From NCBI GenBank assembly GCA_030694985.1, contig JAUYTV010000023.1:1-41128 (forward strand): 41,128 nucleotides of DNA, read 5' to 3'. How positions within the stretch are numbered: the first letter of the stretch is position 1; every line of letters begins with the position of its first letter. Below are positions 35,140-41,128 of the stretch, piece by piece. The position numbers and the translations under genes were made by a program. The notes beneath the pieces were generated by a model that worked only from the letters and a program-made list of their open reading frames with translations, was not told where the DNA came from and searched no databases. The stretch is from Methanoregula sp. GTDB taxonomy: Archaea > Halobacteriota > Methanomicrobia > Methanomicrobiales > Methanospirillaceae.

Positions 35140-35364
35140 ATGTGTGTTGCAGTTCCCGCAGAAGTGCTTGAAATAAAAGAGGGAAATATCGGTCTTGTAG
35201 ATTATGGCGATCTCAAACAGGAGGTCAGGCTCGATCTCGTTGATGTGAAAATCGGTGAGTTCGTCCTTGTCCATGTAGGATTTGCCATCCAGCGTCTATC
35301 CCGTGAAGAAGGTCTTGAGACCCGGGAAATATTCAAACAGGTCTATGCTGCGCTGGAGGATTGA
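35140..35364 (+). CDS. hypC: Hydrogenase maturation chaperone HypC
   Basis: This 74-residue protein starts MCVAVPAEVLEI with the essential Cys2 of HypC/HupF, and keeps the OB-like beta pattern and GEFVLVHVGFAIQRL. HypC carries the Fe(CN)2CO precursor with HypD and passes it to the NiFe-hydrogenase large subunit. The first gene of hypC-hypA-hypE, it has AGAGGA upstream and overlaps hypA by one base or more at TGATG. The rest of the pathway (hypB, hypD, hypF) is not in this window. Confidence 0.96.
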   Translation: MCVAVPAEVLEIKEGNIGLVDYGDLKQEVRLDLVDVKIGEFVLVHVGFAIQRLSREEGLETREIFKQVYAALED

Positions 35365-35702
35365 TGCACGAGTTATCCATTGCCTATGACCTGTACGCTA
35401 CCGCACGCAAGGCAGCCATTGAGAATAATGCGAAATATGTAAAACGAGTCAGCGTTGAAGTCGGAAAGATGGCAATGGTAAACCCGGAGCAGGTAACTTT
35501 TTTATTTGGAACAATCAAAGAAGACGATCCTCTTTTTGAAAAAACAGTGCTTGTCTGCACTGACGTAACTCCCCAGACTACCTGCACCTGCGGATATTCT
35601 GGTGAAGAAATATATATCTGCCCCGGGTGTGGGGCGTTACCGAAAATGGTAAAAGGCAGGGAAATTGTAGTCACAAATATTGAGATCGAGGTTGAGGACT
35701 AA
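35364..35702 (+). CDS. hypA: Hydrogenase nickel-insertion protein HypA
   Basis: The 112-residue protein begins MHELSIAYDL, where His2 binds nickel, and has the zinc loop with Cys74, Cys76, Cys86 and Cys89. HypA delivers Ni to the NiFe hydrogenase with HypB. The first zinc pair is spaced CTC rather than the commoner CxxC. The ATG at 35364 overlaps the hypC stop (TGATG); an in-frame TTG one codon before it would move the Ni-binding His and is rejected. The gene is followed by hypE after 1 nt. Confidence 0.95.
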   Translation: MHELSIAYDLYATARKAAIENNAKYVKRVSVEVGKMAMVNPEQVTFLFGTIKEDDPLFEKTVLVCTDVTPQTTCTCGYSGEEIYICPGCGALPKMVKGREIVVTNIEIEVED

Positions 35703-35703
35703 A

Positions 35704-36699
35704 ATGAAAGTCAATATGATGCACGGAGCCGGCGGAGAAGTCATGGGCGAACTTTTACAAACGCTCACTAAGTTTACGCATAACAATGCCGGAGGTATTG
35801 GACTTGAGGCAATGGATGATGGGGCAGTCATCCCTTTTAATGGAAAAAATCTTGTCTTTACAACAGACTCTCATGTAGTCCGCCCGATTTTTTTTCCCGG
35901 TGGAGATATCGGGAAAATCTCTGTCTGTGGAACCATCAATGATCTCGCAATGATGGGTGGTCAGCCAATCGCGCTTTCCTGTGGCATGATCATTGAAGAG
36001 GGATTTGAGATCGATGATCTTGCAAAGATTGTTGCGTCAATGGATGAAGCCCTTGGTGAATGCGGAGCAAACCTTGTCTGCGGAGATACTAAAGTGATGG
36101 AGAAAGGGGCGCTTGACGGTATAGCTATCAATACTTCCGGTATCGGCATTGCAAAAACGGTTGTAAGGGACAATGGTCTTGTTCCCGGTGATGTGATCAT
36201 TGTTTCTGGCACACTCGGGGATCATGGCCTTGCCATTATGGCACACCGTGAGGGTTTTGATCTTGGTGAGCAGATAAAATCTGATGTGGCTCCGCTCTGG
36301 AATATGGTTAAAAAAGCGCTTGATGCCGGCACCATTCATGCAATGAAGGATCCAACACGGGGGGGGTTTGCAAGTGCTATCAATGAAATGGCAAGAAAAA
36401 GTGGTGTCTGCGTACGAATAGAGGAAGATAAAGTGCCAATACGAAAGAACGTAAGGAGTGCCGGAGCTATGCTGGGTATCGATCCGCTCGAAGTGGCAAA
36501 TGAAGGAAAAGTAGTAATGGGGGTTCCGGCATCCTGCGCTGATGCGATACTCACTGCTCTTCGCTCAGATAAATACGGATATGAAGCTACCATTATCGGA
36601 AACGTCACAAAAGGTGCCCATGTCATTATGGAAACATCCATTGGCGGTGAGCGATTCATTGAGCCACCGATGGGGGATCCAGTACCAAGAGTGTGCTGA
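35704..36699 (+). CDS. hypE: Hydrogenase maturation protein HypE
   Basis: This 331-residue PurM/SelD-like ATP-dependent dehydratase turns the carbamoyl group on its C-terminal Cys into cyanide for the hydrogenase Fe centre. The N-terminal HGAGGEVM, DDGAVIP and FTTDSHVV motifs, SGTLGDHGLAIM, KDPTRGG and the terminal PRVC with the reactive Cys are all present. ATG 35704 (MKVNMMHGAGG) is chosen over an upstream in-frame ATG inside hypA, because the family begins just before HGAGG. T-rich sequence after the stop may terminate the operon. Confidence 0.97.
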   Translation: MKVNMMHGAGGEVMGELLQTLTKFTHNNAGGIGLEAMDDGAVIPFNGKNLVFTTDSHVVRPIFFPGGDIGKISVCGTINDLAMMGGQPIALSCGMIIEEGFEIDDLAKIVASMDEALGECGANLVCGDTKVMEKGALDGIAINTSGIGIAKTVVRDNGLVPGDVIIVSGTLGDHGLAIMAHREGFDLGEQIKSDVAPLWNMVKKALDAGTIHAMKDPTRGGFASAINEMARKSGVCVRIEEDKVPIRKNVRSAGAMLGIDPLEVANEGKVVMGVPASCADAILTALRSDKYGYEATIIGNVTKGAHVIMETSIGGERFIEPPMGDPVPRVC

Positions 36700-36917: not shown

Positions 36918-37002
36918 GCGTGGATATCCGAGTCTGGTCAAAGGAGCGGGATTTAGGGTCCCGTCGCGCAGGCGTTCGCAGGTTCAACTCCTGCTCCACG
37001 CA
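36918..37002 (+). tRNA. tRNA-Leu (anticodon UAG)
   Basis: An 85-nt class II tRNA folds from the sequence: acceptor arms GCGTGGA and TCCACGC with discriminator A; anticodon stem CGGGA/TCCCG around loop TTTAGGG, giving anticodon TAG (reads CUN Leu codons); a long variable arm (CGCGCAGGCGTTCGC region) as expected for tRNA-Leu; and T arm GCAGG-TTCAACT-CCTGC. CCA is not encoded (CATTT follows). No intron is present. Confidence 0.95.
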
Positions 37003-37216: not shown

Positions 37217-37936
37217 ATGTTCGACAAAACTCTTAAACGAATAAAAAATAATCCACACATTGTTTCTTACGCTATTTCCTGTACGCTAATTATCGCTGTT
37301 GTTTTGAATTTTTACATGCTCTTTTTTAGCCAGACGATTATATTTGATCCACTGTTTTATTTTCCCATTATCCTTATTGCATATTATTATCCCCAACGGG
37401 GTGTAGTTGCTTCTGTAAGCATCGCTGTATTGTATCTTGCAATGGTACTGGTGTTACTTCAGGATCCTGCAAAAATTATACTTACCTGTATTGGACATGC
37501 AGGATTCTTTATTATCGTTGGGTTCGTCATTTCGTATCTAATTACCACATTCCCGCATGAATTTGCAATCTATAACCTGCTTGTAGAAACCGTTGAGCGA
37601 TCAAGAATAAAAATTACAGTAATTCCATCTCTTATTGTCATTTTCACATCCGTAATCTTCCTCCTGAATTTTATGGCAATCCAGGCAAGCCACACGGTCA
37701 TCTTCGATCCCCTGTTTTATTTCCCCATTATCCTAATCGCATATTTTTATCCCCGAAGGGGAGTTATTGCATCTGTAATTATTGCAGTGCTGTATATTGT
37801 AATGGTCAATGTTATACCCAATTTACCTGAAGAAATTACGATTACCTGTATCGGACATGCAGGATTTTTTGTTATCATTGGGTTTGTCGTATCGCATCTC
37901 AATATATGTTTTTCACGGGAAGGGCCAATCCATGAA
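37217..37936 (+). repeat. Exact-length tandem duplication (2 x 360 bp) in the sensor membrane domain
   Basis: The first 240 codons form two in-frame units of 120 codons. FDPLFYFPIILIAY occurs at residues 43-56 and 163-176, CIGHAGFF at 91-98 and 211-218, each 120 residues apart. The DNA is also similar (for example TGTTTTATTT and CCCCATTATCCT in one unit and close variants in the other). The ends of the units are more diverged than their middles. Confidence 0.85.
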
Positions 37937-39340
37937 CGATTTGCAAATATTGTGGAGTCCTCCGGGTACGAAGCATACCTGGGAGTGACACCCGATGGTA
38001 TGGTTACGGACTGGAACAAAGGTTCTGAACTATTGTACGGGTACAAAGCGCTTGAGATCGTTAACAGATCAATTTTCATGCTAATGTCTCCTGACCGTCC
38101 AGATGACATCAAGCACCTGCTTAAAAAGATACAAGAAGGCACCGGTCTCGAAGAATATGAAACGGAACTGATGACAAAAGATCGGCAGCGGGTTCAGATC
38201 TCACTTATGGTCTCTCTCATTACAAATTATCGTAACGATGTAATTGGTGCCCTTGTTCTCGCACATAACATTACTGAACGAAAACTAAGGGAACAGGCGT
38301 TGCAGAAGAATGAAGCCAAACAGCGTGCAATGATTGCAAATATTGCAGATGTTATTGCAATTATCGACATTAAGGGAAAAATCCGATATATAAGCGAAAA
38401 TATCGAAAAACTATTCGGTTGGAAGCCTGTAGAACTTATGGGACTCTCACACACTGAAATTGCACACCATGAAGATGTTGAACGGATCACAAAAGTTTTT
38501 CATAAACTATTAGAAGAAGAGAATTCCTCAACAACTATTGAATATCGCTATCAATTAAAAGATGGAATCTTCCACACCATCCAGCTTACAGCAAAGAATC
38601 TTGTTCATGATCCCAATATCAACGGAGTTTTAGTAAATTTCCATGACATTTCGGAACGAAAACTGCTAGAAGACACATTAATACACGTGAACCAGAAGTT
38701 AAACGTGCTCTCCCAACTGACACGAAAAGACTTAACCAACCAGATATTTGTCCTGAGCAGTTACCTGGAACTGGCAGTACAGGATGCAGAAGGACAGGAT
38801 AAAGTGATTGAGAGAATCCAAAATGGTCAACAGGCAGCCCGGTTGATCAATGAGATTGCAGAATTTACCAAAGATTATCAGGATATGGGTGCAAAACCCC
38901 CAAAATGGCAGAACGTAAAGATAGTATCGTTACTTGGGCTCTCACATATATCGATTGGAAAGATACAGCACAGCCTCGAAACAGAAAATCTAGAGATCTT
39001 TGCCGATCCCTTGCTTGAAAATGTATACCAGCGGATCTTTGAAAACTCAGTTGCACATGGCAACCGTGTCACGACTATCCGGGTTCATTACAAAATTTCC
39101 ACCGGAAGTGTTACCATCTACTTTGAAGACAACGGCATAGGTATCCCAAAAGTGCACAAGGAACAGATCTTTTTGCGCGGGGCAACTGCCCGTTCAGCTA
39201 TGCGGAGCCTGATATTTGCAAAGGAAATTCTCGATATTACCGGTATCACCATTAAAGAGACCGGAGAATACGGAGCAGGTGTACGGTTCGAGATGACGGT
39301 GCCTGAAGGTATATGGCGCTTTTCCCGGAATGGTGAATAA
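37217..39340 (+). CDS. Membrane PAS sensor, histidine-kinase-like but lacking the phospho-accepting His
   Basis: This 707-residue protein has a membrane domain made of two tandem 120-residue copies (1-120 and 121-240). Two PAS domains follow (about 240-355 and 365-480, each ending with a PAC-like ITERK/ISERK), then a dimerisation region and a C-terminal HATPase_c-like domain. At the H-box, where the downstream kinase has TRHDIKNQ, this one has TRKDLTNQ, with Lys504 in place of His. The N-box reads FENSVAHG (Asn610), G1 is DNGIGIP, but G2 lacks the GLGL motif (RSLIFAKEIL). It is probably a pseudokinase or partner sensor. ATG 37217 is chosen over TTG 37199. The stop codon overlaps the next ATG (TAATG). 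Confidence 0.85.
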   Translation: MFDKTLKRIKNNPHIVSYAISCTLIIAVVLNFYMLFFSQTIIFDPLFYFPIILIAYYYPQRGVVASVSIAVLYLAMVLVLLQDPAKIILTCIGHAGFFIIVGFVISYLITTFPHEFAIYNLLVETVERSRIKITVIPSLIVIFTSVIFLLNFMAIQASHTVIFDPLFYFPIILIAYFYPRRGVIASVIIAVLYIVMVNVIPNLPEEITITCIGHAGFFVIIGFVVSHLNICFSREGPIHERFANIVESSGYEAYLGVTPDGMVTDWNKGSELLYGYKALEIVNRSIFMLMSPDRPDDIKHLLKKIQEGTGLEEYETELMTKDRQRVQISLMVSLITNYRNDVIGALVLAHNITERKLREQALQKNEAKQRAMIANIADVIAIIDIKGKIRYISENIEKLFGWKPVELMGLSHTEIAHHEDVERITKVFHKLLEEENSSTTIEYRYQLKDGIFHTIQLTAKNLVHDPNINGVLVNFHDISERKLLEDTLIHVNQKLNVLSQLTRKDLTNQIFVLSSYLELAVQDAEGQDKVIERIQNGQQAARLINEIAEFTKDYQDMGAKPPKWQNVKIVSLLGLSHISIGKIQHSLETENLEIFADPLLENVYQRIFENSVAHGNRVTTIRVHYKISTGSVTIYFEDNGIGIPKVHKEQIFLRGATARSAMRSLIFAKEILDITGITIKETGEYGAGVRFEMTVPEGIWRFSRNGE

Positions 39341-40773
39341 TGACAGAAAAAATCCTCGTCCTCTATGTAGATGATGAACCTGCCCTTCGTGATATCGGCA
39401 AACTGTTCCTTGAGCGTACCGGGCATTTTTCTGTTGTAACCATTGACTCGGCATCAGCTGCCTTTACACTCATCAAAAAAAATCATTTCGATGCCATTGT
39501 ATCTGATTATCAGATGCCCGGTATAGATGGTATAGGATTTCTAAAATCTGTCAGGGCACTGGGAGACAAAATATCATTTGTTATATTCACCGGGAGGGGC
39601 AGAGAAGAGATTGCCATCGAAGCTCTCAACAATGGTGCAGATTTCTACATCCAGAAAGGTGGTGATCCAAAATCCCAGTTTGTGGAACTTGCCCACAAAA
39701 TCCGGACTGCGGTAGAGAGACGCCGGACGGAGGATGCGCTTGCAGAGAGCGAGGAACGGTTCCGTGGCATCACTGAGAGAATTTCTGATCTGATCATTGT
39801 TGTAGACCCACAAGGATACTCAACTTTTGTTTCTCCATCCATTATCAGTATCCTTGGAAATCCCCCGGAATTTTATTTCAAAAAAATGGTAGATTCGATT
39901 AATATTCCGGCAGAAGATGCAGAGAAGCTGGGGAATGCTTTTGAGCGGTTGAATAATGGAAGTTTAGCAGAGCATCTGGATTTCCGTATGAAAAAGAGCG
40001 ATGGATCCTATGCTGTTTTCGATGGAAGGGCACTACCCATTTTTAAGGAGGGTGTCTATGCCGGAATCCAGTTGGTAGCCCGGGATATTACAGATCGCAA
40101 GCATGCAGAAGAGGCATTACAGCAGGCAAACCGGAAACTCCACCTTCTCTCTGGTATCACCCGGCACGACATCAAAAACCAGCTCATGGTATTACGGGAG
40201 TATATCCGGACCCTGCAAGAAATGGTTCCTGAACCTGCTCTTGAGGGGAATTTTACCCGTATAATTAATACGAGCGAGCGGATTGCAGCAATGATCCAGA
40301 TTACCAAAACCTATGAGAATATCGGTGTCAAAGCTCCTGTCTGGCAGGATATCCGCTCACTATTTGATACCGCTGTCCATGATACTCCGGTTGGAAAGAT
40401 CAAGTGTAACAACGATATTCCAACCGGAACCGAAGTTTTTGCCGACCCGCTGATAGTCAATGTATGTTATAACCTGATCGATAATGCAGTCCGGTATGGC
40501 AATAAGATCACAACCCTCCGGTTCTCGGTTCTGAAACAAAACGATGATACGATTATAATCTGCGAGGATGATGGGGTTGGTGTTCCTGCTGAAGTTAAAG
40601 AAAAGATCTTTGAGCGGGGATTTGGGATTAATACCGGGCTTGGTTTAGCCCTTTCACGGGAGATTCTCGATATTTCTGGCATCACTTTAAAAGAGACCGG
40701 AGAACCAGGGAAAGGAGCACGTTTTGAGATGATGGTGCCAAAAGGGGTGTACCGGTTCGGTACGCCCCGATAA
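39340..40773 (+). CDS. Receiver-PAS-histidine kinase (reverse-order hybrid)
   Basis: This 477-residue soluble signalling protein has an N-terminal receiver domain with the acidic pocket (Asp11-Asp12), phospho-acceptor Asp56 in IVSDYQMPG and Lys106. A PAS domain follows (about 133-252), then an H-box LSGITRHDIKNQL with His276, and an intact ATPase domain: N-box IDNAVRYG (Asn382), G1 EDDGVGVP (about 409-416) and G2 TGLGLALSREIL. The receiver before the kinase is a layout common in methanogens. It probably receives phosphate from, or reports to, the sensor encoded just upstream, with which it overlaps by 1 nt. No DNA-binding output domain is present. Confidence 0.92.
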   Translation: MTEKILVLYVDDEPALRDIGKLFLERTGHFSVVTIDSASAAFTLIKKNHFDAIVSDYQMPGIDGIGFLKSVRALGDKISFVIFTGRGREEIAIEALNNGADFYIQKGGDPKSQFVELAHKIRTAVERRRTEDALAESEERFRGITERISDLIIVVDPQGYSTFVSPSIISILGNPPEFYFKKMVDSINIPAEDAEKLGNAFERLNNGSLAEHLDFRMKKSDGSYAVFDGRALPIFKEGVYAGIQLVARDITDRKHAEEALQQANRKLHLLSGITRHDIKNQLMVLREYIRTLQEMVPEPALEGNFTRIINTSERIAAMIQITKTYENIGVKAPVWQDIRSLFDTAVHDTPVGKIKCNNDIPTGTEVFADPLIVNVCYNLIDNAVRYGNKITTLRFSVLKQNDDTIIICEDDGVGVPAEVKEKIFERGFGINTGLGLALSREILDISGITLKETGEPGKGARFEMMVPKGVYRFGTPR

Positions 40774-40941: not shown

Positions 40942-41128
40942 GTTCATCGTATTTTGGGGTATAATGGCATCAGCCACCATCTTTGTAATTTACTCACTTC
41001 AAGCTTTACCCATTCAAAATAGCTATGAGCCATAAAAAAATCTTAACGTTCGATCCTAATCTCCAACGTGCTTTTTTAACCAAATCCATAATAATTCTTG
41101 TAAGCATAAAAACCGGTTAATGAAACAG

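Follow-up and report, generated by a model that had tools for sequence, protein, structure and literature searches.

A histidine-less transmitter gene overlapping an intact receiver-PAS-kinase gene in Methanoregula, and the archaeal clade of pseudokinases to which it belongs

The stretch of DNA analysed here is contig JAUYTV010000023.1 of a Methanoregula sp. (assembly GCA_030694985.1), taken over its 41,128 nucleotides (nt) and hereafter called the window. It carries two overlapping genes, which encode the membrane-bound pseudo-histidine-kinase P0001 and the intact histidine kinase P0002. The reading we favour, with modest confidence, is that P0001 acts as a non-phosphorylating membrane/PAS transmitter that most likely controls the adjacent P0002, in which a receiver domain (REC) and a PAS domain precede the kinase core. 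P0001 is a member of a clade, here called P-type, that is defined by conserved catalytic defects (no acceptor His and no G2 motif), a reading frame that has stayed open and strong conservation of the dimerization and histidine phosphotransfer (DHp) domain.

The gene pair

Both genes lie on the forward strand and consist of the following parts, with the basis of each assignment in brackets.

37217..39340, forward strand: gene of the pseudo-histidine-kinase P0001 (707 amino acids), with tandem membrane domain, two PAS domains, His-less DHp and a catalytic and ATP-binding (CA) domain without G2 (open reading frame, motifs, Pfam, alignment, model)
37292..37573, forward strand: membrane repeat 1, residues 26-119 (self-alignment, hydropathy; helices in model)
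37652..37933, forward strand: membrane repeat 2, residues 146-239, a duplicate of repeat 1 (self-alignment, hydropathy)
37973..38278, forward strand: PAS domain 1, about residues 253-354 (Pfam, model)
38306..38674, forward strand: PAS domain 2, about residues 364-486 (Pfam, NCBIfam, model)
38651..38878, forward strand: DHp helical hairpin, model helices 479-523 and 528-554 (model, substitution rates)
38726..38728, forward strand: codon AAA for Lys504 at the phospho-acceptor His position, with D505 (+1) and N508 (+4) retained (alignment)
39038..39061, forward strand: intact N box FENSVAHG, residues 608-615 (alignment, motif scan)
39122..39142, forward strand: intact G1 box FEDNGIG, residues 636-642 (alignment, motif scan)
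39188..39217, forward strand: position of the G2 motif, occupied by ARSAMRSLIF, residues 658-667 (alignment, motif scan)
39338..39342, forward strand: TAATG, in which the stop codon of one gene and the start codon of the other share 1 nt (read directly)
39340..40773, forward strand: gene of the partner P0002 (477 amino acids), a REC-PAS-histidine kinase with every motif intact (open reading frame, motifs, Pfam)
39340..39714, forward strand: receiver domain of P0002, residues 1-125, with phospho-site D56 and D11-D12, T84 and K106 (Pfam, motif scan)
40165..40167, forward strand: His276 of P0002 in TRHDIKN (sequence, core alignment)

The reading frame of P0001 opens with the ATG at 37217 and closes with the TAA at 39338-39340, while that of P0002 starts with the ATG at 39340-39342, and the two proteins are probably co-translated. 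A preliminary description, made from the sequence, had pointed to a Lys at position 504 and a lost G2 motif in a protein whose PAS domains, G1 box and frame were intact, followed at a 1-nt overlap by a neighbour with a receiver and every kinase motif. Direct reading of the sequence, Pfam searches and the alignment bear this out for both proteins. P0002 has the layout REC, PAS, kinase in Pfam, a complete receiver site (D11-D12-D56-T84-K106) and the kinase motifs TRHDIKN, DNAVRYG, CEDDGVGV and GFGINTGLGLALS.

In P0001, Lys504 stands in the context LTRKDLTNQ, and the same Lys in three species rules out a sequencing error at this codon. Pfam reports two PAS domains and HATPase_c (E 3e-7) and no HisKA match. 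Compared with an active kinase of the HisKA/HATPase_c type, P0001 retains the DHp hairpin and the HATPase_c fold (Pfam and predicted model) together with the N box and a G1 box that reads FEDNGIGI; the acceptor His is missing, and no GxGL motif is present, ARSAMRSLIFAKEIL standing in place of G2. The predicted model, built from an alignment of 20 rows, shows the two helices 479-523 and 528-554 and an alpha/beta CA domain at a modest confidence that suffices for domain order only (predicted local distance difference test score 71.7, predicted template modelling score 0.33). A Foldseek search with this model returned PAS-kinase and other PAS proteins at low TM-scores. Self-phosphorylation of HisKA kinases is very unlikely without both His and G2, and from its sequence the same is to be expected of P0001. 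Its transmitter is probably still able to dimerize and dock.

The membrane domain of P0001 (37292-37933) is a tandem duplication, the two repeats being 76% identical across 217 aligned nt. A similar membrane-PAS arrangement is joined to an intact TRHDILN-type kinase in several relatives (L005, L011, L014-L016), so the sensor part of P0001 is also found on live kinases.

Conservation of the pair

The complete pair has orthologs in two other species, G004 (89% identity) and G012 (86%). In both, Lys504 and the loss of G2 are conserved, the same REC-PAS-kinase directly follows the pseudokinase gene, and the two genes likewise overlap or abut. In G012, the ortholog seems to have its initial 152 codons inverted at a contig end (L038/L097; G012 C65:3-458), most likely through an assembly fault.

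Pairwise ratios of nonsynonymous to synonymous substitution rates (dN/dS), given here as two values per region, are 0.146 and 0.196 for the whole P0001 gene, 0.133 and 0.096 for P0002, and 0.052 and 0.024 for the DHp region of P0001 (residues 486-580). P0001 is thus under purifying selection, and the DHp, which would be expected to decay first, is the best conserved part of the protein.

A clade of histidine-less transmitters

In order to define the extent of the family, a profile made from eleven His-less, G2-less cores was searched in 108 genomes of Methanoregulaceae. Forty P-type cores scored at least 280 bits, all within 12 of these genomes, and the next score was 243 bits. Searches of the order (232 genomes) and of an evenly drawn phylum sample (295 genomes) yielded no further P-type core above this gap. 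A genome holds up to about eight copies; in the source genome (G000, Methanoregula-like, assembly size 2.49 Mb), the His is missing from 9 of 40 kinase cores, and 4 of these are P-type. The cores are carried by dCache-HAMP-PAS, multi-PAS, GAF, PocR and REC-PAS sensor arrangements.

The preliminary description had named His and a normal GLGL motif in relatives as the pattern that would indicate decay in a single strain. The relatives have Lys, Gln or Arg and a lost G2 instead: the acceptor position reads K in 25 cores, Q in 9, R in 4, E in 1 and H in 1, so that 39 of the 40 are without His, and G2 is found in 0/40 P cores versus 69/71 His-bearing cores. G1 is kept in every P core and the N-box Asn in 36. 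The +1 residue is D or E throughout (40/40), and the +4 residue is N in 24 cores, S in 10, T in 5 and I in 1.

Maximum-likelihood analysis of 124 cores recovers the P clade as monophyletic (branch support 95/78; 94% of bootstrap trees). It nests within a clade of 50 rows (96/89) that also takes in the TF-x-DIQN and YQDIQNK lineages, likewise His-less, and that has a single His-bearing member. This wider clade is almost entirely His-less and G2 is mostly still present in the TF-x-DIQN lineage; therefore the loss of His looks ancestral, and that of G2 looks like a later event in the P clade.

The sole His-bearing member of the P clade (L101:1629-3389, G004 C102) has a SITRHDINNQ stretch on a P-type core and shares its contig with a normal P gene and the partner of that gene. 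A chimeric origin was considered and rejected: the likeness to His-bearing kinases is confined to some 20-30 residues around the H-box, and the remainder is P-type. Gene conversion and assembly error are the two alternatives for its origin.

Members of the second His-less lineage, TF[NQSTR]DIQN, occur across Methanoregulaceae (L131, L133, L134, L139, L162, L169, L170, L173, L079-L082, L086 and L087). They mostly keep G2 and therefore may still bind ATP. In G000, one of these genes, L133, shares 1 nt with that of an intact HDINN kinase. The His position is occupied by other residues in the further cores L078, L085, L089, L090 and L093, with the motifs TKTELANR, RTDLTNQ, TRNDITNQ and TRTTMNNQ.

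Association with intact kinases

An intact kinase is a more frequent neighbour of P-clade genes than of the intact kinases of G000. Neighbourhoods were counted by reading, with genes cut by contig ends set aside, and the control is one genome (G000), so that the p-values are indicative. Of the 32 P genes whose context is visible, about 21 are directly adjoined by an intact kinase of the same strand; among the 31 intact kinases of G000 the number is 9 (Fisher p 0.005). Tight contacts, in which a start lies -8 to +6 nt from the end of the stop of the other gene, join 16/32 P genes to an intact kinase versus 4/31 control kinases (Fisher p 0.0025); the genes of a pair often overlap, by 1-4 bases. 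The partners are of one predominant type, HDINN/HDIKN, in 21 of 22 cases versus 15 of the 31 intact kinases of G000 (p 0.0003). One P gene, L122, is paired with a HisKA_2 kinase instead, and another, L105, overlaps a classical HisKA hybrid kinase.

The pairing with an intact kinase noted in the preliminary description thus recurs, but it is not obligatory, its gene order varies, and it gives no indication of co-evolution beyond partner type. The further suggestion that the membrane member senses while a soluble one supplies catalysis fits the window pair, in which P0001 is the only membrane member. As a rule it had to be rejected: one membrane and one soluble member are found in 9 of 14 complete pairs, with no excess over the marginals (permutation p 0.45).

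Two further observations concern the surroundings of P genes. A REC-PAS-pseudokinase gene (L103:4998-6437; G000 C28:5596-7035) shares its strand with a glutamine synthetase gene only 22 nt away. A periplasmic binding domain of the NMT1 type forms part of the intact partner in L110; in L112 and L120 it is the product of a separate gene that adjoins the P gene.

Comparison with known pseudokinases

RetS of Pseudomonas aeruginosa is a kinase-dead sensor that acts on GacS in two ways: its +4 residue is directed at the GacS receiver, and autophosphorylation of GacS is blocked as well (PMC5992135). In the window, too, a kinase-inactive membrane sensor with the build of a histidine kinase would control another kinase. 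The +4 phosphatase residue, Thr or Asn in RetS-type regulators, is kept as N508 in P0001, and the target, which for P0001 is a proposed one, bears a REC in both systems. As in RetS-type regulators, with their degenerate HATPase, the motifs of P0001 predict no kinase activity of its own. RetS differs in keeping its His and its own REC domains, whereas P0001 has neither the His nor a C-terminal REC. Furthermore, RetS is a single bacterial gene, whereas the P clade comprises dozens of paralogs that often overlap the gene of an intact kinase.

DivL of Caulobacter and its relatives carries Tyr instead of His, has neither kinase nor phosphatase activity, and senses a phosphorylated receiver in order to control CckA (PMC4211667). 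It shares with P0001 the replaced His (Tyr550 in DivL), the retained DHp-CA fold and PAS domains, and a target that bears a REC, as the proposed target P0002 does. At the level of the kinase fold, at which the two are compared, DivL has Tyr where P cores have K, Q, R or E and never Tyr. DivL also reads a separate regulator, DivK, and is one conserved gene, whereas the P clade is a paralogous family.

Among methanogens, the MA_type 2 kinases of Methanosarcina acetivorans, RdmS and MsmS among them, are without an H-box; they can bind ATP and hydrolyse it, and they show no autophosphorylation (PMC11784639), as is also predicted of P0001. Going by their description, the whole H-box is lacking, whereas the TR-x-DL frame is kept in P cores, with a substitution at the His alone. 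P cores are without G2 and many of their genes are paired, whereas RdmS is an orphan protein of the cytoplasm. The ChrS pseudokinase of Corynebacterium glutamicum is likewise an inactive sensor, which promotes signalling via a paralogous active kinase (PMC9491836); it stems from a laboratory-evolved frameshift in the CA domain, in contrast to the natural and conserved P family. Archaeal surveys describe histidine kinase-like proteins without an ATPase domain and list REC-PAS-kinases as experimentally uncharacterised (PMC5847659). Among the papers listed in a literature search for Methanoregula and histidine kinase, none describes the P clade in its title or abstract.

Possible mode of action and alternative explanations

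The partner in the window offers both a receiver and an active core, and the genes overlap, from which we infer that P0001 would sense a signal and, through its DHp, adjust the phosphorylation state of P0002, following the logic of RetS on GacS and of DivL on CckA. A signal from the membrane and PAS domains would shift the conformation of the His-less DHp. This could then contact the receiver of P0002, either as a phosphatase via Asn508 or as a reader of the phosphorylated receiver. Alternatively, P0001 could pair with the DHp/CA core of P0002, and the resulting mixed dimer would either block autophosphorylation or promote it. P0002 would then phosphorylate a downstream receiver. Between these routes we put receiver docking or phosphatase action slightly ahead of mixed-dimer control; the first of the two, for which the retained Asn at +4 leaves room, had not been considered in the preliminary description.

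A narrower form of this explanation confines P0001 to the receiver, as a pure transmitter phosphatase on the REC of P0002 that has lost kinase activity and forms no mixed dimers. The +4 residue of HisKA kinases is required exclusively for phosphatase action on the receiver (PMC3510030) and is N, S or T in 39/40 P cores, and the REC of P0002 is intact. The restriction is nevertheless rather doubtful, as several partners have no detected REC (for example L108, L110 and L177, the last possibly cut at its start), the Ser found at +4 in 10/40 P cores is unusual, and DivL has no phosphatase activity (PMC4211667).

Several observations weigh against control of P0002 by P0001 as such. About a third of the P genes with context lack an intact kinase as a neighbour, and some (L103, L117 and L124) bear a REC of their own. 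The adjacency control comes from one genome only, and HDINN-type kinases also cluster among themselves. A mirror-tree test on 16 pairs shows no correlation between the distances among P cores and those among their partners (Mantel r 0.14, p 0.25). Nor do cognate cores resemble each other more closely than non-cognate cores do (38.7% versus 38.6%). Together, the two results suggest a link to a type of partner and not to a fixed, co-evolving one. DivL, which has no phosphatase activity (PMC4211667), is the closest His-less case. In addition, the acidic +1 residue kept in all P cores is described as a kinase rather than a phosphatase residue (PMC3510030) and fits neither the receiver route nor the mixed-dimer route.

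The missing neighbours, the variable gene order (P upstream of the partner in some pairs and downstream in others), the clustering of intact HDINN kinases and the negative mirror-tree test would all be accounted for if P0001 were an independent sensor or scaffold, acting alone or on other targets, and if adjacency were a by-product of the expansion and shuffling of kinase genes. We regard this as unlikely, given that half of the P genes with context are in tight contact with an intact kinase gene (16/32 versus 4/31 controls) and that the window pair stays together in three species.

P0001 could also be an active ATPase or kinase with another acceptor, as has been proposed for the MA_type 2 kinases RdmS and MsmS. 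The retention of the N box (36/40) and G1 (40/40) in P cores would agree with this, as would the binding and hydrolysis of ATP by RdmS without an H-box (PMC11784639). The loss of G2 in all 40 cores, the absence of autokinase activity in RdmS itself, and a His position occupied by K, Q, R or E with no conserved alternative acceptor visible there make it improbable. Recent decay of P0001 into the pseudogene of a single kinase gene would explain the absent catalytic residues, but it is ruled out for practical purposes by the same defects in orthologs from three species and in the 40 cores of the P clade, by the open frames and by dN/dS values of 0.15-0.20.

Surroundings of the pair in the window

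Upstream of the pair, the translations of genes at 35140-36699 resemble the hydrogenase maturation proteins of hypC, hypA and hypE, and these genes are followed by a tRNA-Leu gene at 36918-37002. Downstream, the search for a regulator beside the pair stopped at position 41128, at which both contig and window end.

Implications

Kinase-dead transmitters that regulate kinases are already known; what is described here is an expanded archaeal family of them. Pseudo-histidine-kinases that control kinases had previously been known from a few single bacterial genes, whereas the P clade is a whole archaeal clade with fixed loss of His and G2, expanded and repeatedly placed beside intact kinases. The existence of about 40 dead kinases in one family, many with a working kinase alongside, suggests that dead kinases serve systematically as controllers in Methanoregulaceae. 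We speculate, more tentatively, that P-type paralogs on many sensor domains (dCache-HAMP, REC-PAS, GAF, PocR) might form a pseudokinase layer of interchangeable regulatory subunits of HDINN-type kinases, in which the functional sensor would be a mixed two-protein kinase and not a homodimer. If the pairs act as proposed above for P0001 and P0002, much of the sensing of these methanogens would run through catalytically dead transmitters, and many genes annotated as histidine kinases would be non-kinases. Natural pairs would then be at hand in which the control of a live transmitter by a dead one could be studied.

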